Below, one piece after another: positions 9,429-57,147 of a stretch of 64,000 nt of DNA. The stretch is from Adhaeribacter aquaticus DSM 16391 (GTDB lineage Bacteria; Bacteroidota; Bacteroidia; Cytophagales; Hymenobacteraceae), in assembly GCF_000473365.1 (NCBI RefSeq), contig NZ_KI421517.1, forward strand, positions 3,242,634-3,306,633, read 5' to 3'. The position numbers were made by a program, and so were the translations under genes. The notes below the pieces were generated by a model. That model worked only from the letters and a program-made list of their open reading frames with translations. It searched no databases and was not told the DNA's origin. Positions within the stretch are counted from its first letter, which is position 1, and every line of letters begins with the position of its first letter.

Positions 9429-12400
9429 TTATTCAATAATGACCTTACGATTAATTACTTTATCGCCCTGCATTCTGAAAAGATAGATACCTGGTTTTAA
9501 TTGATTTCCAGGGATAACCAAAGTTTGAGCTCTACTAACTTGTAATTGCATCACCAAACGTCCGGCAGCATCCTGTACGGCTACTGATTGTATATGATCT
9601 TCATTTACACCTAAATCAATGGTAACAGCACCTTTCGCCGGGTTAGGGTAAATTCGCAGCTGATTTGGTTCCGCTGCAGCAGGTGAGGCCATACGGGCAT
9701 TATTATTAGTATTGCCAGCACATTGGCCAAGGCAATCGCCCTGACTTAAAAGAGCTGGTACAGCATGTTTAGATACCTGGATAACATTTCCTTTATGGCA
9801 CACAAAAAGCCTATCAGCAATGGTAATATTTACTTCTGCCGCAGTACTAGAGTTAGCTCCATCACTAACGGTAAGTAATAGGTTATAAGTTTTGTTGCTA
9901 AAGTTTAGCAGAGCCGGATTAGCAATCGAAATTTGACCAGTGGTACCATTGATAGCAAAAATATTAGCTCCATTTCCCCCGGTAATTTGCCAGTTTTGGA
10001 AGGTAGTAAATTCTGGTTCGTTGGTATCATCGGCATCCGTAGCAGTTGCTTTGCCTAACACGTTGCAGGAGCCTCCATCAATCGAAAAACTCATAGCGGC
10101 TGTAATAACCGGAGGATTGTCGTTAGCATTACCAACCTTTACCGTTACTGTTTTGGGAGTACTGGTTGTAAAACCATCATGTACAGTTACAACAAGGGTG
10201 TAGCTAGCAGGATTTTGTTCGAAATCGAAACCTGGATTAGTACTTAATTTTACTGTTCCCGTGCTGGCATTAATCGTAAAAATAGAGGCTCCTGTTCCGC
10301 CTACAATTTTCCAGCCGTTAAACGTGGTGTTTGCATCGGCATCCGTTGCTTTAACAGTTCCAACTTCGGCCCCGTTTATAGCGGCTTCACTTACCTGCAG
10401 TACTTGGTTTGGTGTTATTACAGGAGTATTAACATTGTTGCCGCTTTGTACATATTCCCGTAACCACTTTAATGCTGTGCGTTCTGCACCATTGGCATGC
10501 GCCAGGTAAGCTCCCTGGTTTGTTCGCCAGTGGCCCGGACGATAGCCCCATAAGGTTATACCCATTACAGAAGGATGCTCCCAGTAAATTGGGAATACCC
10601 GCTTGTACTCATTTAGCTGTATTTGATCGGTTAAGCCATCAATATCTAGCTCAGTAATCATTACTGGTAAATTACGGGCTGCATACATATCCATAATAGA
10701 GGTTAATGTAGCCGTAGAGGCTCCCTGTGTGGAAAAAGCATGACCCTGAATACCAATGATATCGATTAGGTTTTCTTGTTTTAGCAGGTCAACAATATGT
10801 AAGTAACGCTGGGCGCCAACAACTGTATTTTCCACACTATAGTCGTTAAGCATCAGTTTAGTGTTCGGGAAATACTGTTTAGCTAAACGGAAAGAGTTAA
10901 GTACCCAATCCCAACCAGTTTCGCCATTGCCACCCAATGCTTCTATGTAGTTACCGCTGCCCTGGTCGTTAGCATTAAGTTTTAAAGGCGGATCGTGAGT
11001 CGGTTCGTTCACCACTTCAATAAAATCAATGTCGGGGTAACGTTGGGCTATGGCCGCATACCATTCTTTTATTTCTTCCAGTTGTTCTGCAGGAGGAAGG
11101 TTTTCAATCCAGGCGGGTTGCTGATTTCCCCAGATTAACACGTGGAAGCGGAAGGGATAGCCGTTATCTTTAGCAAGTTTATAAGAGGCGTCCAGTTCCG
11201 TCCAGTTCATTACATCCCGGGTTGCTTCCACGGCACCCCATTTCCCAGCATTTTCTGGTACTACTTGGCTCCAATAATTATTAAAATTAGGAACCTGAGA
11301 CTGGCTGTAAACTCCACCTAAAAATTTTGGTTTCCCGGTAGCAATGGGTGGGCCGGTTGGCGTGTAAGGTTCTGGTGCGGGTTCGGCGCTGCTGCCAGTT
11401 GAAGGAATGTAAATATTATCTATATAAAAAGTGCCGGCTGTAGGAAAATGGAATTTTAGTTCCAGTCCATCTTCCTGGGCCACGAAAACCCACTCGTATT
11501 TTTGCCAGGAGGTAGTTAGGTTTATTACCTGTTCGGCATAAGTGGTTTTTTGCTGAATAACTTTAAATGAACTACCAGCTGTAGCTGCTTTGGCATAAAA
11601 ACTCAAGGTATATTGCTGGCCGGTTTTCGACAGCCAGGCACTGTTTATGCTTTGAACACTCCAAGGGTTTGGCCCTGGTGTAATTACCTCGGCTTTCATG
11701 GCTTTATTGCCTTCTGCTTTATCAGCAGTTTCTATGGAGAATGTTGCCGCACCCGGATTGGCGTGATGTGTCCAGCTGGTAAAATCGTTTTCGAAGCCAC
11801 CATTAGGAATCAGATTTACTACTGGAGCAGGAATATTTATGTTATCAATAAAGAAAATGCCGGCGTTAGGGAAGTGGAATTTAAGTTGCAAACCATCTGC
11901 CCCTGCTGTAAAGATCCATTCATATTTTTGCCAGGAACTAGTAGGGGTAATTATTCTTTCAGCATAAGAACCACCTATTTGCTGGATTACCTTAAATGAG
12001 CTACCTACGGTTGCTGTTTTGGTATAAAAGGTTAGGGTATATTGTTTGCCAGTTTCCGATTTCCAGGCGCTCCCAATACTTTGTACATCCCAAGAATTAC
12101 TACCTGGTTTTATTACTTCAACTTTCATGGCTTTGCTGCCATCATTTGTATCGGTTGTTTCCAGTGAAAAAGTTGCGTTAGCCCCGCTTCCTACCAGATT
12201 GGTCCAGCCAGTAAAATTGTTCTCAAAGCTGCCATTGGTAATTAGATTGGGCAATTGGGCGGGTGGTGTCAGGCCCGGAATATTGATGTTGTCAATATAA
12301 TAAGTACCAGCTTGGAGGAAGTTAAAGCGCAACTGCAGACCAGCCTCCTGAGCGGTAAAGGTCCATTCATATTTTTGCCAACTTGTGGTTAAAATAAACT

Positions 12401-48863: not shown

Positions 48864-49297
48864 ATTATTAGGCCTCAGTTCCTTCCACTAGCTGAGCATA
48901 ATGTTAAGGTGGACAGGTTGAAAATTTTATTGTCTCCGTATTACTCCATTCATTAATGGCTTGAGCAAGCCTGCTTATAGCCTTAATACCTTTTTTCTTT
49001 GTCAAAGAATTCTATTTTGCTCCTTTATTCAGCATTAGCTGTTATTGTTAATCTTGTAAATTGGTGTCCTTTTATTATAAGGATACTTTTGAGATTTATT
49101 TAGAATTGTATATTAGTGTGTTAGAGGAAAGGAGGCGCTTTGGGGCAACTTTGGAAAGTGGTGCGCTTGTAGGGGAAGAGTACTTTAGTTTTGTTAGCTT
49201 ATTGAGAAGGGTATTCCCCAACTAGGGGGTTTAACCTTGCCGGTTTTATTAATACTTAACTAAAATATCCTCCCGTTGCTACTACATTAAACTAATA
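48864..49297. other. Intergenic, nothing recognised
   Basis: About 430 bases between the GH9 terminator and a broken small gene. No frame, RNA gene or repeat is evident. Confidence 0.4.
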
Positions 49298-49582
49298 ATG
49301 CAAGTCAAACATTTCCTGATTATTCCGTTTATTTTTCTAAGTTTTTTTGCCAGTTCCCAGGTGCACTATGGCTCCACACCGGAAACAGTAAAAGCCTTAA
49401 CCACTTTGCGGGATGAGTTTGAGCGGGTGCTGCTAAATCAGAATAAGTATCCAGCGGGTTAGATTTATGGTGACTGGAGTGATGCCATCAAGAATGATTT
49501 GAGAAGCTGGGTAGGCAAATACCCCAAGAAGATAGCGGCTACCAAACAGGACATGGAAGTTTACCTGGCTAAGAAGCATTAG
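49298..49582 (+). pseudogene. Small secreted protein gene split by one in-frame stop
   Basis: ATG 49298 opens a frame with a signal peptide (FLIIPFIFLSFFASSQ) and then HYGSTPETVKALTTLRDEFE. A TAG at 49460 ends it after 54 codons, but the same frame continues as IYGDWSDAIKNDLRSWVGKY to a TAG at 49580. Repairing the single stop would give a 94-residue protein. The family is not recognised. It lies directly before the membrane AraC regulator. Confidence 0.6.
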
Positions 49583-49749: not shown

Positions 49750-51645
49750 ATGCTTCGGGTGTTTAAGAGTTTTCTTATTCTTTTTTTGTTTGGTATCCAA
49801 GTTGGGTATGGCCAAATACGACTAGAAATAGTTAAGCTACCTAAATTACTGATACCAGAAGGAAAATTATTTTTAGCTTCTGATTTGAATGGCTGGAGTC
49901 CTGGTGATCCGGCTTATGCTTTCAGGAAAGATGCCAGGGGTATATTTTACTTAGAGTTGCCAGATTCTCTCCAGTATTTCGAATACAAGATAACGCAGGG
50001 GAGTTGGACCATTGTAGAGGGAAACAAGCAGGGAGGGCACCGAAGCAACCGGGTTTATGATGTAACCCAGGAATCAAATCCTAAACTAGTGCAAATCCAG
50101 ATAGATGGCTGGAAAAATAGAGTTACCTACCGATTTGTTGTGGAAAAAATACCAACAAATACGCCGCACGATGCCACCTTATACATTGCCGGAAATTTTA
50201 ATAATTGGAATCCCCGCGACGAATCATATCGGTTACGAAAACAATACGACGGTACCTACCGAATAAGTGTGTATTCTGATGAGGATCCGTTATCCTTCAA
50301 ATTTACCCGCGGCAACTGGGAATCAGTAGAAGGTAAAAAAAATGGTAAGCCAATTGCAAACCGGAATATAAAACGCGGGGAAGAAATTGGGCAAACCGAA
50401 ACCAAAGTGGACATTGAGGGCTGGCAGGATATTCCGCAGACGTTGCATTCCTTTTCAATTTTTGATATTTTGTTGTTGTGTGCTGCCTTCAATGGTTTTT
50501 TGCTGGCTATTGTTATTCCAACCATACAAAATAATAACCGCAAAGCTAATAAGTGGCTGGTGTTGCTGCTGCTGCTTACTTCGCTCATTATCTGCATTCG
50601 GGTATTAGGAGGCAATAGTGCTATTGATCATGTTTTTCCGCAGTTACTTTTACTGCCCGATTTTATTTTCTTTAGCTATGCGCCCCTTTTTTATTTTTAT
50701 GTACAGAATCTTTTGTTCGACTCTGAGGAATCTAACAATATAAAGTGGCTCCATTTTAGTTTGGTGTTGGTGCAGCTAGTTATTTACCTGCCCTTTTTAT
50801 TGATGGACCAACGGGACTTAATGCTTTACATTGTAAATAACGAACCTAATCTGGAGCTGGTTCTGGTAGGAACAGAGGCCATTGCCTTAGGTATTAATGG
50901 CTACTATTGGTTGATTATTAAAAAGAACCTAAAATTATTTAAAGACCAGGCCGAAACCCGGTTTTCCTACGAAGAAAACCTGAACTATCTGAATTCGGTA
51001 ATGATTATTCAGGCCGTTTGCCTGGGTTTATGGTTATTTACGGCTTTAGTCTTTGTGCACGGTAAAGTTTTTTCGGCCGATGTACTGGCCATTACGGAGA
51101 AGAGCCAGGCGGGCATTTGGCTGATTTTTTCGGCAACTTCTTATTTATTAGGTTACTTTGCTGTTCATCAGCCTGAGGTTTTTAAGCTCCCTGAACCAAT
51201 TTCAGTTTTTGGAACCAGTGAGAATCTGCCACTTGAAGAGGTAAAAGTAGAACGTGTAGTACCTGAAAAAAAGCCAGAAGAACCAATAGACGAGAACTTA
51301 CTGCAGCTGAAACAAAAGCTAGAAACTTATATGGAGCGGCATCAACCTTATACTAATTCAAAACTTACTTTAAATGAATTAGCTGTTAAGTTAAAAATTC
51401 AACCTTACATACTTTCCCGGGTTATCAATGAAGGGTATAACAAAAACTTCTTTGATTTTATTAATACTTATCGGATAGAAGAATTTAAAAAACGCTTGGA
51501 AATTCCCCGATTTAAGAATTATACCTTATTGGCCATTGCCTTTGAAGTTGGATTTAATTCCAAGAGTGCTTTCAATCGTTCCTTCAAGCGCATCACCAAT
51601 CAATCTCCCAGCGAGTACTTTAACCTGACAAAAGAAGATATTTAG
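49750..51645 (+). CDS. Membrane-spanning AraC-family regulator with two external CBM/E-set-like domains
   Basis: This 631-residue protein appears to sense sugar outside the inner membrane and bind DNA inside. A signal peptide ends near VGYGQ (residue 22). Two domains follow (about 22-122 and 125-227), each with FLASDLNGWSPGD or YIAGNFNNWNPRD and a FEYKITQGSW or FKFTRGNWESVEG strand, typical of starch-binding/AMPK-like E-set modules. Seven hydrophobic segments follow (about 238-258, 268-286, 296-320, 333-352, 370-390, 417-438, 455-472), then a charged linker and a C-terminal AraC double helix-turn-helix (about 520-628, ending FEVGFNSKSAFNRSFKRIT). It probably controls the SusCD genes beginning at 52350. 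No ligand can be assigned. Confidence 0.9.
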   Translation: MLRVFKSFLILFLFGIQVGYGQIRLEIVKLPKLLIPEGKLFLASDLNGWSPGDPAYAFRKDARGIFYLELPDSLQYFEYKITQGSWTIVEGNKQGGHRSNRVYDVTQESNPKLVQIQIDGWKNRVTYRFVVEKIPTNTPHDATLYIAGNFNNWNPRDESYRLRKQYDGTYRISVYSDEDPLSFKFTRGNWESVEGKKNGKPIANRNIKRGEEIGQTETKVDIEGWQDIPQTLHSFSIFDILLLCAAFNGFLLAIVIPTIQNNNRKANKWLVLLLLLTSLIICIRVLGGNSAIDHVFPQLLLLPDFIFFSYAPLFYFYVQNLLFDSEESNNIKWLHFSLVLVQLVIYLPFLLMDQRDLMLYIVNNEPNLELVLVGTEAIALGINGYYWLIIKKNLKLFKDQAETRFSYEENLNYLNSVMIIQAVCLGLWLFTALVFVHGKVFSADVLAITEKSQAGIWLIFSATSYLLGYFAVHQPEVFKLPEPISVFGTSENLPLEEVKVERVVPEKKPEEPIDENLLQLKQKLETYMERHQPYTNSKLTLNELAVKLKIQPYILSRVINEGYNKNFFDFINTYRIEEFKKRLEIPRFKNYTLLAIAFEVGFNSKSAFNRSFKRITNQSPSEYFNLTKEDI

Positions 51646-52349
51646 GATATTATCAAGAAACAGGCAATATTTATTTTTTTTGCTGTAAAAGCTAAGGTTA
51701 TGCCAGGATCATGACTTTAGAGTTCTGGGGGTTCTTTTTTTTACGACTTATTCCAACTTGCCGTTAGTTACCATATTGTTTTGCTTTTTAAGCAAAATCA
51801 GCTCTTATGTCAGCCGCTGTTTAGGAAAATGGCACCTTTATTATTTTGTATAAGGTTGCAAATGAATAATTTGCAGTGATGAATAAATGTTTTGGTTAGA
51901 CCAGTGGCAGGAGGCAGCCACTTTCATAGGTATACAGCATTTTCTGTTCTGGTTAACTTATTTTCTAAATCTGAGCCACCCAACCTTAACATGAAGCAGA
52001 AGAATCAATTCTAAAATAAATAAATAACAGGGGTTTATTGAAAAAATTTTAAAAAATAAAGGTTAGTAGCGGGTTTTTAATTTTAATCTTTTTTACGGGT
52101 AATATTTTAAAAGATATAATTTATTGTATTTGATTATTTGAAAAAATTTAATACTATTAAAAACCGAAATGTGCTATATCTTAAATTGGGGATATTGTAC
52201 TAAATACATATCTATAGATAAACTTAATCTTTAAATTATTTGCCTATGGTTAAACAAAAGTAAACCTATTTCCGCCCCACAAATCCACACGAACTCATTT
52301 CAAGATCATTATTACCACAGTTTTATTTTCTATTTAAACATCCACCAAA
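51646..52349. other. Intergenic and susC promoter region
   Basis: About 700 AT-rich bases with no gene. It holds an inverted repeat at 51857-51875 that may be a regulator site. The promoter of susC should lie in the last 200 bases. Confidence 0.5.
51857..51875. repeat. Inverted repeat, possible regulator site
   Basis: TGCAAATGAATAATTTGCA has 7-base perfect arms around 5 bases. It lies between the AraC regulator and susC, about 475 bases before susC. It differs from the LacI-type motif elsewhere in the window. Confidence 0.4.
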
Positions 52350-55300
52350 ATGAAAAAAAAATCTAATGATTGGCAGAAGTCAGTCTTTGGTTTATTAATG
52401 GTTTGTGCCTTTAATGCCAGTGCAGAGGCTACAATAATTAAAACCAGGGACTTAAAAACAAACAACGCTTATGGAACAAATCTACATGCAGAAAGCCTGA
52501 TTAATTGGCACATTACCGGTAAAGTGGTCTCCAATAAAGGAGAGGCCTTACCTGGCGTAACCGTATTAGTAAAAGGCACTACCAATGGCACCACCACCGG
52601 GGCAGATGGCACTTATTCTTTAAGTGTACCGGAGCAGCCAGGTACGCTTGTTTTTACCTATATTGGTTTTACTTCCAAAGAAGTAGCCTATCGGGGGCCA
52701 GGAGCCCAAAATGTTTCTCTGGCCGATGATTCTCAAGCCCTGCAGGAATTAGTAGTAGTTGGCTATGGGGTGCAGGAAAAGAAAGATGTAGTAGGAGCGG
52801 TAGGAGTAGCTTCCCGGAAAGACTTTGGCGATGTAGCAGTAAGTAATACCTCGCAGCTGATTCAGGGAAAAGTTTCCGGGGTACAGGTCGTGAATAATAG
52901 TGGCTTGCCTGGTTCTGGTAGCAGAATTATAGTAAGGGGAGCTGGTTCCTTTACCAGTACAACTCCTCTGTATGTAATTGATGGTATCCAAAGCGATCAG
53001 AGCACTTTTAATTCCTTAAGCCCTTATGATATTCAGGATATAACAGTTTTAAAAGATGCTTCGTCGGTTGCTATTTATGGTGCCCAGGGCGCTAACGGGG
53101 TTGTAATTGTTACCACTCGAACGGCTAAAACCGGAGCCCCAAAAGTTACTTATAACGGGTACGTAGGGGTTTCCAAAGCTTGGCGGCAACTAGACCTTTT
53201 AGATGCCCCGCAATATGTGGATTTTGTAAAAGAATTTGCTGCTAATACCAATACGGCCCTTCCGGCAAAGTTAAATACCCCTGACGTGCTCCAAACCCGA
53301 ACCGATTGGCAAAAGGAGATGTTTCGGACAGCCAAAGTAACTGAGCACCACGTTGGCCTGAATGGGGGAACTGAAAATGTTAAATATGGTATTTCTACTG
53401 GTTATACAAGTCAGGAAAGCTCCGTAATTGGCTTAAAGTTTCAGCGATTTAACGTGCGGGTAAACCTGCAGGAAAATGTGGGCCGGAGAATCAGGTTTGG
53501 TCAGCAGGTAAACGTTCGGTATTCTGTTACCCAGGGCGTAACGCCTAGCTTTGTTGCAGGTCTGCGGATGCCGCCTTATTCCCCCATTTATGATCCGGCA
53601 AATTTAGGAGGCTTTGCCGTAGTTACCACTGTTACAGATCTGAATGATGCCCAAAACCCGTTAGTTGAACCTAGTTTACGCGATAGAAGAGACCGTAACT
53701 ATACCACATATGGGCAGTTTTTTGGGGAATTGGATATTGTTGAAGGATTAAAATTCCGTTCGCAATTAGGAATTGGGGTGCACTTTAGCCAGGATTACAA
53801 CTTCAACCCTATTTACCAGAATGCGCAGCTGACGTTCCCAAGCTCCGTAAACGAAGGATACAGTTACCGGGTTAACCCTATAATCGAAAACTACTTTACT
53901 TATAATAAAAAAGTAGGCGACCATAGTTTTGTTTTAACAGCTGGTAATTCTTACCGCTCAACCGGTTTGTTCCGGTCCGTTGCTTTAAGGGGCGAAAATT
54001 TACCGAATGATGAAATCCATCAGATTGGTATGACCGCTACCCCTACTTTAACTTCGGCGCAGGCCAACTCCCAACCGGCTTTTAACTCTTATTTTGCCCG
54101 GATTAATTATACCCTGAAAGATAAATATATTTTTTCTGCTACGGCTCGCCGGGATGCTTCTTCTGTTTTCGGGCCTAAAAACCGGGTAGGTTATTTCCCA
54201 TCCGTTGGCGTGGGTTATCGCTTATCCGAGGAAGAATTTATGAAAGGAGTTCCGTTCTTGTCTGACTTGAAATTACGGGCCAGCTGGGGTAGAACCGGTA
54301 ATGCCAATATTCCGCCTTATGTATACATGCCATTAGTATGGAAAGGAAATCAGAACAGTAACAACGTGGTGTATTCTTTAGGGCCCGATGAAGGCTTAGT
54401 GCAAGGATCTACGTTGGCGGTACCGTATAACCCAAACCTGAAATGGGAAGAAACCACCACCACTGATTTTGGGGTTGATGCTGCCTTCCTGAGCAATAAA
54501 CTGACCTTTAGCTTGGGCTATTATAACCGGAATAGTAAAGACTTATTGGTAAATGTGCCCTTGCCAACTTCGGCGGGCTATGGCGGTACCCAGGGAACAC
54601 AATCGGCTATTCTGACTAATGCTGCTTCGGCTTATAACCGGGGAGTAGAATTACAGGCTGCTTATAATAATAATGTGGGCGAACTAACCTATGGCTTATC
54701 GGTAAATGGGGCTTACAACAAAAACCAGGTTACTTCTTTAGGAGATATCATTAAATCGCCTATTTTATCAGGAGGTTATCAGGCTGTAGCTTCCTGGACC
54801 CGTACAGAGCCAGGTAGTCCTATTGGGGCATTCTACGGTTTTGTGGTGGATCACGTCGCCATTGACCAAGCTGATGTAGATAAATACAATGCCATGGCTG
54901 TTTCTAAAGGTGTTCCAGGGGGTACCTATCAGGCAAGTTTACGGCCGGGTGATATCATTTTTAAAGATTTGAATGGAGATGGCCAGGTAACCAATGCCGA
55001 CCAAAAGTACATTGGTAATCCAAACCCTAAATGGAATTATGGTGCCAACTTAAACTTAGGTTTTAAAGGCTTCGATTTAATGGCTTCTTTACAAGGAGTA
55101 GCCGGCGTGGATATTGTTAATGCCTTGGGCTACTGGACAGAAGGTATGACCCGTCCTTTCAACTCAACAACCGAAATACTACGTCGTTGGAAAAAACCAG
55201 GAGATGTTACCGATGTACCTCGGGCTGGCCAGAACATTACCGGTAGTTTAAACCTGCGGCCATCTACCCGATTTGTGCAAAGTGGTTCTTTTGCCCGCCT

Positions 55301-55553
55301 GCGTAATTTAACTTTAGGTTATACCATTCCGGAAGCCAGAATCAAACCTTTAACGGCCAATACCATCTCTAGCCTTCGGGTCTATTTCACCGCTCAGAAC
55401 CTGTTCACGATAACCAAATACAAAGGTTACGATCCGGAAATATCTGGTTCTAACACGGATACCGAAGGTGATTTTATTTTTACCAGAGGTATTGATATTG
55501 GACAATATCCACAGCCAAGAACCTTCATGCTAGGCTTTCAGGTTGGCTTTTAG
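52350..55553 (+). CDS. SusC/RagA-family TonB-linked outer-membrane transporter (second locus)
   Basis: This 1067-residue protein has a hydrophobic leader (SVFGLLMVCAFNASA, about 11-25), a carboxypeptidase-D-like domain (about 52-135, ITGKVVSNKGEALPGVTVLVK), TonB-box region LQELVVVGYGVQ, a plug with IDGIQSDQ and DASSVAIYGAQGANGVVIVTT, and a barrel ending TFMLGFQVGF. It is paired with SusD at 55594. Its substrate cannot be read from sequence; closeness to GH9 and to a regulator with CBM-like domains suggests a beta-glucan or other plant glucan. Unlike the xylan SusC it is not linked to an operator of the LacI type. Confidence 0.95.
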   Translation: MKKKSNDWQKSVFGLLMVCAFNASAEATIIKTRDLKTNNAYGTNLHAESLINWHITGKVVSNKGEALPGVTVLVKGTTNGTTTGADGTYSLSVPEQPGTLVFTYIGFTSKEVAYRGPGAQNVSLADDSQALQELVVVGYGVQEKKDVVGAVGVASRKDFGDVAVSNTSQLIQGKVSGVQVVNNSGLPGSGSRIIVRGAGSFTSTTPLYVIDGIQSDQSTFNSLSPYDIQDITVLKDASSVAIYGAQGANGVVIVTTRTAKTGAPKVTYNGYVGVSKAWRQLDLLDAPQYVDFVKEFAANTNTALPAKLNTPDVLQTRTDWQKEMFRTAKVTEHHVGLNGGTENVKYGISTGYTSQESSVIGLKFQRFNVRVNLQENVGRRIRFGQQVNVRYSVTQGVTPSFVAGLRMPPYSPIYDPANLGGFAVVTTVTDLNDAQNPLVEPSLRDRRDRNYTTYGQFFGELDIVEGLKFRSQLGIGVHFSQDYNFNPIYQNAQLTFPSSVNEGYSYRVNPIIENYFTYNKKVGDHSFVLTAGNSYRSTGLFRSVALRGENLPNDEIHQIGMTATPTLTSAQANSQPAFNSYFARINYTLKDKYIFSATARRDASSVFGPKNRVGYFPSVGVGYRLSEEEFMKGVPFLSDLKLRASWGRTGNANIPPYVYMPLVWKGNQNSNNVVYSLGPDEGLVQGSTLAVPYNPNLKWEETTTTDFGVDAAFLSNKLTFSLGYYNRNSKDLLVNVPLPTSAGYGGTQGTQSAILTNAASAYNRGVELQAAYNNNVGELTYGLSVNGAYNKNQVTSLGDIIKSPILSGGYQAVASWTRTEPGSPIGAFYGFVVDHVAIDQADVDKYNAMAVSKGVPGGTYQASLRPGDIIFKDLNGDGQVTNADQKYIGNPNPKWNYGANLNLGFKGFDLMASLQGVAGVDIVNALGYWTEGMTRPFNSTTEILRRWKKPGDVTDVPRAGQNITGSLNLRPSTRFVQSGSFARLRNLTLGYTIPEARIKPLTANTISSLRVYFTAQNLFTITKYKGYDPEISGSNTDTEGDFIFTRGIDIGQYPQPRTFMLGFQVGF

Positions 55554-55593
55554 TTCATATTAGATATAGTTTTCAACTTATTAAAATACAAAT

Positions 55594-57147
55594 ATGAAAA
55601 AGAAAATTAGCGTTTTACTTATGGCAGCCTCTTTATTCACGGCCAGCTGTAAAGACGAAAGCTTAGATATAAAAAATGAGAATGCTTATAATCTAGATAC
55701 CTATTTTAAAGGGCAATCTCAGTACAACGAGGCAGTAATTGGCACTTATGCAGTATTTCTGCATGCCGGCATGTATTACCGGGAATGGTATTTTCTATTA
55801 GACTTAATTGGTAACGATGCTGAACGGGATGCCCCATTACTCGGCGACTTGGCTCAGTATGCAAATTTTAGTTATGACCGGGCCAATACCATTCATTCGG
55901 TAACCTGGGCCTCTTTATACCGGATGGGTTTTAGAGCCAATTTGGTATTAGATAAGGTAGGAGCCTGGAAAACCGCAAATGCCAATGAGGAAAATCTTAA
56001 AAAGCAGTACCTGGCTGAGGCTCACTTTTTACGGGGTTGGGCTTATTTTAATCTGGTTAATTTATGGGGTCGGGTACCTATCCGAAAATCTTTTGAGGAG
56101 TCCAATGTTTCGGCAGCTCCTCGGGTTGCCGTGGCAGAAGGTTGGAAATTTGTAGAAGATGAATTTAAAGCTGCCATTAAAGATTTGCCGGTAACTTATG
56201 CCAGTGCCAATAGAGGTCGGGCAACACAGGGTGCTGCCATTGCTATGTTAGGTAAATCTTATTTATATCAGAAAAAGTTTGATTTGGCTGCTCAGGAATT
56301 GGTAAAACTTACAACGGCTCCTTTTAGCTATGACCTGAATCCCAGCTTCGATCACCAGTTTAGCGATCAGAACCAAAACAGCAAGGAAACTATCTTTGAT
56401 ATTCCTCACAGATATTTCCCGGGCAGCGGTTATAATTATGCTGTGGAGGGTACTAATGCGAAAACAACCCACACCCGCAGGGCACAGGAATATGGATTTA
56501 ACGATTGGCGAAACGTATTTATCTCGGATGCAATTGTAAAAAACTTTAAATACCAGGACGAGACGGGCCAGCCCTATACCGACCCAAGAGGAAAGTTGAC
56601 CTTTTATGGGGATGCAGCTAGTGGTGGCGATCCTGATTACTGTAACACCTGCCCTAATGGACCAATAGCTTATAATCCGAATGAGAAAACTCAAGGCTAT
56701 CGGTTCCGGAAATACGAGCCTTATGAGTTCCAGGAAAAAACAGTACAGTCACAAAGTCCTATTAATTCGCAGGTTATACGGTATGCCGATGTGTTGTTAA
56801 TGCTAGCCGAAGCTTACATTGAAAACAATCAGGTAGAATTGGCCCGGCCGCTCATTAACCGGGTTAGAAAAAGAGTGAATGCTTTTGAATATACCACGTT
56901 GGGTAGCCAGCAAAACGCTCGGATGATTGTACGCCGGGAGCGGCAGATAGAACTGGCAGGTGAACAATCGCGTTGGTTTGATTTAATTCGTTGGGGAATA
57001 GCCAAGCAAACCATTAATGCCGAAAAACAAGCTAAGCTGGGTATTCAGCCTTTCCAGGATAAACATGTTCTGCTTCCTATTCCGGCAGCTGAGATCAATG
57101 CCAATCCTGCTGTTGCCAATGATATGACCATTCCGGAGTGGAATTAA
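55594..57147 (+). CDS. SusD/RagB-family outer-membrane lipoprotein (second locus)
   Basis: The 517-residue protein has a lipobox FTASC with Cys19, an N-terminal region with YNEAVIGTYAVFLHAG, the helix region KKQYLAEAHFLRGWAYFNLVNLWGRVP typical of the family, and a C-terminal RADVLLMLAEAYIE-like segment (the true text is RYADVLLMLAEAY) with RRERQIELAGEQSRWFDLIRWG. It starts 40 bases after susC and ends at a terminator, so the pair forms a short transcription unit without attached enzymes. Confidence 0.95.
   Translation: MKKKISVLLMAASLFTASCKDESLDIKNENAYNLDTYFKGQSQYNEAVIGTYAVFLHAGMYYREWYFLLDLIGNDAERDAPLLGDLAQYANFSYDRANTIHSVTWASLYRMGFRANLVLDKVGAWKTANANEENLKKQYLAEAHFLRGWAYFNLVNLWGRVPIRKSFEESNVSAAPRVAVAEGWKFVEDEFKAAIKDLPVTYASANRGRATQGAAIAMLGKSYLYQKKFDLAAQELVKLTTAPFSYDLNPSFDHQFSDQNQNSKETIFDIPHRYFPGSGYNYAVEGTNAKTTHTRRAQEYGFNDWRNVFISDAIVKNFKYQDETGQPYTDPRGKLTFYGDAASGGDPDYCNTCPNGPIAYNPNEKTQGYRFRKYEPYEFQEKTVQSQSPINSQVIRYADVLLMLAEAYIENNQVELARPLINRVRKRVNAFEYTTLGSQQNARMIVRRERQIELAGEQSRWFDLIRWGIAKQTINAEKQAKLGIQPFQDKHVLLPIPAAEINANPAVANDMTIPEWN

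Follow-up and report, generated by a model that had tools for sequence, protein, structure and literature searches.

A predicted E-set, seven-helix and AraC receptor linked to starch genes and a candidate operator in Cytophagales

Receptor gene and external domains

The window, a 64,000-nucleotide stretch of DNA from Adhaeribacter aquaticus DSM 16391, contains a receptor gene whose 631-residue chain comprises a signal peptide, two E-set domains, seven hydrophobic segments and an AraC-type helix-turn-helix (HTH). Table 1 presents these features together with the elements that flank the gene. The reading frame does not represent a chance ORF, since near-full-length relatives with 28-50% identity occur in many genera. 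This one-chain architecture, with its tandem E-sets, was claimed by an earlier note on the same DNA and is upheld here.

Table 1. Features of the receptor gene and its flanks, in window coordinates
Feature	Position	Strand	Remarks
Candidate operator and promoter	49155..49193	+	AAAGTGGTGCG ... TAGTTTTG
-7-like element within the candidate operator-promoter	49186-49193	+	
Broken short ORF	49298..49582	+	54 aa, TAG at 49460, then 39 aa
Receptor gene	49750..51645	+	ORF, 631 aa
Signal peptide, residues 1-21	49750..49812	+	by eye; helix 2-17 in AlphaFold model
E-set domain 1, residues 22-123	49813..50118	+	W49 K80 W86 N100
E-set domain 2, residues 124-229	50119..50436	+	W153 K184 W190 N204
Seven membrane segments, residues ~237-258, 264-287, 302-322, 337-351, 366-391, 413-438, 446-473	50458..51168	+	hydropathy and AlphaFold model
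AraC-type HTH_18, residues 544-624	51379..51621	+	Pfam, E 7.1e-15
Adjacent susC/susD pair, non-starch type	52350..57147	+	no operator

A Pfam scan of the window receptor detects the C-terminal AraC HTH as its sole domain, where a score of 55.5 bits against the curated HTH_18 cut-off of 33.6 assigns the protein to the AraC family. The membrane part was analyzed through mean hydropathy over 54 aligned sequences, with the first and last ten residues excluded from the scan. Inspection of this profile reveals seven peaks above 1.1, at residues 250, 278, 309, 343, 376, 426 and 464. Seven long helices in the full-length AlphaFold model, itself only fair (pLDDT 72.7, pTM 0.42), are in line with these peaks, such that the odd number of segments anticipated by the earlier note is recovered by both approaches. 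Loop charge bias in the aligned receptors does not settle the topology. The signal peptide, the odd segment number and the DNA-binding domain point to an N-out/C-in arrangement, which would place the E-sets in the periplasm. Foldseek also returned GPCR-like matches for the membrane part, and these were set aside given the low model confidence and the fact that any seven-helix bundle could match.

The E-set pair consists of two repeats of one domain. An AlphaFold run of the pair with 50 sequences yielded a fold of mainly beta strands with a mean pLDDT of 93.8; a structure prediction of the external part had been suggested by the earlier note as a check. The search against carbohydrate-binding families gave a divided outcome. 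The window receptor alone has no Pfam CBM match (CBM48/AMPK1_CBM) at E≤1, whereas at the same threshold X25 (pullulanase) matches 43, AMPK1_CBM 34 and CBM_48 22 of the 51 E-set-bearing receptors, the lowest E-values being 8e-8, 2e-7 and 2.7e-8, respectively. Chibby, an unrelated-looking Pfam model, also matches 18/51 receptors at E≤1 (best 3e-4), so the weak Pfam matches are not all meaningful. The best PDB sequence matches of the E-set profiles are likewise weak and link the domains to Bacteroides GH13 (0.004 and 0.0005) and AMPK beta chains (0.007 and 0.03).

Alignment of a wider E-set profile, in which 26 of 28 rows come from non-receptor proteins, with AMPK beta (HMMER, E 0.007) pairs FNNW with FNNW, FKF with YKF and GSW with GQW. 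According to the section of PMC9788615 that treats this contact, AMPK W100, K126 and W133, with N150, hold cyclodextrin. With this residue numbering placed on the HMMER alignment by us, the receptor W, K and W align with W100, K126 and W133 across the wider E-set family. The corresponding residues W49/K80/W86 and W153/K184/W190 are 98-100% conserved in receptors and are all present in the window copy, and the starch-binding-type signature proposed earlier is supported. N204 is conserved in 100% and N100 in 86% of the aligned receptors, the latter being mostly D otherwise; by position, both may stand in for AMPK N150. Foldseek places a Bacillus surface protein and Ig-like pilins at the top for the E-set pair, followed by branching enzymes, CGTases, the STBD1 CBM20 with maltotetraose and Bacteroides GH13. 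The modeled fold appears compatible with starch-binding modules without being diagnostic of them. From the Pfam matches of related receptors and the aligned residues, the external domains are classed as CBM48/AMPK-glycogen-binding-like and are predicted to bind sugar.

The same E-set family also occurs in other proteins. Tandem repeats are found in L022-L031, many with a lipoprotein-like start, and no other recognizable domains were seen in them by eye. In many of the secreted-looking Bacteroidota proteins among L032-L087, a single E-set at the N-terminus precedes esterase-like or other domains (by eye).

Family distribution and neighboring starch genes

Relatives at E≤1e-40 were identified in 55/390 genomes of the order (27/129 genera), in 9/150 genomes of the window's family and in 7/395 genomes of the class, where a further family accounts for three. 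Some of these matches are partial, where two of the 55 genomes (G193, G244) match the membrane and HTH part only, without E-sets. The seven other genomes listed for the window's own genus contain no match at this threshold. Among the best 80 of 93 relatives from a scan of named genomes, Runella, Chryseolinea and Cytophagaceae MAGs contribute full-length forms, Fibrivirga one with a single E-set and Microscilla one lacking E-sets. We found no description of this E-set-7TM-AraC receptor family among the open papers that our searches listed.

Both E-sets are present in 42 of the 54 aligned sequences, the second alone in 9 and neither in 3. The pairing emphasized by the earlier note thus holds for the window receptor and is not essential to the family, as domain 2 is found in 51/51 E-set-bearing receptors while domain 1 is missing in 9/51. 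A tree was built from the membrane and HTH part, with 8/54 receptor rows left out (near-copies, one duplicate contig and one truncated sequence). In it a single branch sets all 44 included E-set carriers apart from the other sequences, with support of 89/81 and recovery in 88% of bootstrap trees; several branches are long and this support is not strong. The simplest history suggested by these sequences would be one E-set fusion with later losses of domain 1. Several genomes of one family (f18) carry a second receptor copy like L157 (G271:C1:5153400-5173300), a divergent paralog with 28% identity that directly adjoins a GH13 gene. Two record titles, Chryseobacterium gleum for L015 and Fervidobacterium for L035, do not fit the sequences, which are probably mis-binned contigs.

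To describe gene neighborhoods, 54 loci were compared, consisting of 13 from the named-genome scan, 40 that were fetched and the window. Of the 51 E-set-bearing loci, 44 have a GH13 amylase or SusE gene no more than 9 kb away. This contrasts with 0/21 for E-set-less 7TM-AraC sister genes of the same genomes (Fisher 1.5e-12, a value that overstates independence because the loci are partly related and the counts retain near-identical loci of Runella and Cytophagaceae). These 21 control regions are those of 30 that passed the anchor filter, the other 9 being dropped. The three E-set-less loci among the 54, two of which represent one contig, also have no GH13 or SusE gene within 9 kb. PF00128 matches number 3 to 25 per genome, and arithmetic from these counts gives an expected chance occurrence of GH13 of at most ~9% per 20-kb region.

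Inspection of the individual loci reveals a starch-type SusC within 9 kb in 31/54, and the commonest layout is susC-susD-susE-GH13 downstream of, or divergently adjoining, the receptor. A cyclomaltodextrinase-type GH13 gene directly follows the receptor in one genus from the window's family, and in five loci of family f18 the gene directly before the receptor encodes a giant secreted amylase that carries CBM26 modules. Pfam identified SusE, alpha-amylase, Cyc-maltodext_N, CBM26 and SusG_C domains among nine chosen neighbors. Seven E-set loci have no GH13 or SusE gene within 9 kb. Three of these (L014, L015, L017) meet contig ends and a fourth (L140) has a GH13 gene ~11 kb off; for the window, L137 and L151 a contig end is no excuse. 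In L151, a gene that flanks the amylase elsewhere abuts the receptor.

The E-sets might instead be merely structural or dimerization modules, with the ligand binding to the 7TM bundle or arriving with a partner protein. Such a role would suit the occurrence, in the same genomes, of E-set-less sisters that share the membrane and HTH part at 23-34% identity, as well as the receptors that lack domain 1. In the sample examined, however, starch neighbors accompany E-set carriers only, and the binding-type residues are near-invariant, which makes a purely structural role rather unlikely.

Candidate operator and the window locus

The upstream regions (420 bp) of 31 starch-type susC genes and six adjacent GH13 genes served as the motif source. 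By eye, these regions contain AAAGTGG(A/G)(A/G)CGA near a TAnTTTTG element, which fits the Bacteroidota -7 box; the motif starts 31 nt before this box. The motif is present in 26/37 target upstreams versus 0/474 control upstreams and 6/7400 letter-shuffled copies. Genome-wide, the exact pattern AAAGTGGNNCG-N18-22-TAnnTTTG occurs in 24/55 receptor genomes versus 22/335 genomes without a receptor, the latter being close to the rate of a reversed control pattern (some 25 of 390 genomes, counted from the listing). In 23 genomes a site (AAAGTGGNNCG-N20-TAnnTTTG) is no more than 4 kb from the receptor, and in 22 of them no more than 600 bp, with a spacing of N20 in 20 and N21 in three. These operator counts partly include loci that supplied the motif; ten of the 23 near-receptor sites fall outside the 26 motif-source regions (G000, G105, G381, G397, G407, G432, G436, G440, G454, G458), some having close relatives there. 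The remaining 31/55 receptor genomes have no exact match, and family f18 has no exact site near the receptor, that of G208 lying 78 kb away. We regard the AAAGTGG site as a candidate operator of the receptor, with DNA contact predicted. A second, more distal inverted repeat of the type TACCACTTT..AAAGTGGTACG was seen by eye between receptor and susC in many loci.

The window genome contains a single exact match to the genome-wide pattern, namely the site upstream of the receptor. A position weight matrix trained without the window gives this site 25.4 bits, with the runner-up in the 64 kb reaching 7.9; in 30 control regions the best score is 21.6 and the median 6.7 bits. The site ends ~560 bp before the receptor start, on the same strand and ahead of the broken ORF. 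That ORF, directly downstream of the operator, looks secreted and is interrupted by an in-frame TAG; its two pieces, searched separately, returned no convincing relative in the collected loci.

Control of the adjacent susC/susD pair by the receptor, as proposed in the earlier note, does not fit these data. With a starch-SusC profile the adjacent SusC reaches 563 bits, where unrelated control SusCs score 165-701 and the true starch-type neighbors from which the profile was built exceed 900, and neither the pattern nor the matrix finds an operator in the gap before susC (51646-52349). On these two grounds the pair was rejected as the receptor's target. We found no starch-type susC in the window genome, where the Runella starch SusC is matched at no more than 36% over its full length and at up to 50% by shorter pieces. 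None was found in ten 20-kb regions around the nine PF00128 places of this genome and four other SusC genes, and the operator matrix gives these regions and L246 no more than 6.3 bits. The single SusE-domain match lies within a locus that appears by eye to be of pectin type. A one-mismatch operator site at 3206936, inside a coding ORF of the pectin-type locus, was taken as chance. With no starch-type susC found, the receptor appears orphaned; that is to say, it seems to have lost its usual starch operon and to keep its binding residues and operator. A single operator before the broken ORF and the receptor predicts self-regulation as opposed to control of the adjacent pair.

A different account of the locus is that the window receptor has been re-purposed to sense a different glycan and to govern the non-starch susC/susD beside it, perhaps with the upstream GH9 gene. 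Receptor and susC do share a strand and lie 708 bp apart, and the receptor is intact with its binding residues kept although no starch-type susC was found. The only operator nevertheless sits on the opposite side of the receptor from susC, and the adjacent SusC is no nearer to starch SusC than unrelated SusCs are, so we consider re-purposing quite unlikely.

Proposed signaling and relation to known systems

The starch neighbors of E-set carriers compared with their sisters, the conserved W/K/W residues and the common operator lead to a reading of the E-set receptor family as, most likely, a starch regulator and functional counterpart of SusR. The family-wide starch-gene link and the common operator exceed what the earlier note could see. 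We judge with good confidence that the receptor is a one-component transmembrane activator of starch (sus) type, for which the ligand, direction of signal, DNA contact and activation are those we infer as follows. Maltooligosaccharides (α-1,4-glucan) entering the periplasm would bind the exported E-sets, upon which the seven-helix bundle would change state and relay the signal through the inner membrane to the AraC domain on the cytoplasmic side. This domain, possibly dimeric, would then bind AAAGTGG(A/G)(A/G)CGA and recruit RNA polymerase, turning on susCDE and GH13 genes. In the window genome, the receptor would regulate itself through its upstream operator.

Binding of β-galactan, pectic or xylan-type chains by the E-sets, in place of α-glucan, is very unlikely. 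A GH53 galactanase-cluster gene does stand beside 10/51 receptors (one member, L012, was Pfam-scanned), and many E-set relatives are parts of secreted esterase-like or other proteins. GH13/SusE neighbors are far commoner, however, a GH13 gene is the receptor's immediate neighbor in two separate lineages, and the residues for α-glucan contact are retained. Galactan is a possible co-signal. The GH53 endo-galactanase-type gene of L012 spans 9921-10970 by the receptor, and in several loci such a gene lies between receptor and susC.

SusR of Bacteroides thetaiotaomicron is described in the relevant part of PMC3878776 as a membrane one-component starch regulator with a periplasmic sensor and a cytoplasmic DNA-binding part, the C-terminal part of which, as stated there, is not significantly similar to any other known DNA-binding domain. 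The predicted receptor architecture and the family neighborhood fit a membrane starch regulator of this kind, with a periplasmic sensor; in contrast to SusR, the receptor possesses an AraC HTH_18 (E 7e-15), seven segments and E-sets. AraC-type hybrid two-component systems, as outlined in that source, also unite a periplasmic glycan sensor and an AraC output in one chain, but Pfam found no kinase or receiver domain in the receptors. The claim that the design is distinct from both hybrid two-component and SusR-like sensors stands. Receptors of the 7TMR-DISM type share an external domain, seven helices and an output, following the account given in part of PMC6107284, with the helices of our receptor being predicted. 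The two differ in that the external domain here is an E-set and the output binds DNA, and the 7TMR-DISM Pfam domains have no match in 15/15 receptor members at E≤10. The E-set-less sisters have the membrane and HTH part in common with the receptor and differ in their lack of E-sets and of starch neighbors (21/21 without GH13/SusE within 9 kb). Relative to the AMPK beta glycogen-binding domain and CBM48, with which they share the E-set signature and W/K/W sugar contacts, the receptor E-sets are fused to a membrane regulator, and the window copy falls below Pfam detection.

Taken across the family, we lean toward a broader proposal in which an outside glycogen-binding-type module wired through seven helices to an AraC domain, without phosphotransfer, would be the starch switch of many Cytophagales, replacing SusR and acting through the AAAGTGGRRCGA operator. 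Among the papers searched, we found little on starch sensing by Bacteroidota outside Bacteroides, and the conserved set of receptor, operator and operon offers a ready test in culturable genera. The AAAGTGG promoter is a candidate maltodextrin-responsive promoter part, and the family may provide a simple model of a seven-helix receptor that passes its signal straight to DNA. The window locus is instructive as well, in that receptor and operator are kept where no starch operon was found. Elsewhere in the sample, the receptor of L147 has a DUF6377 neighbor (PF19904, 11064-12686), a membrane protein whose end looks HTH-like by eye.
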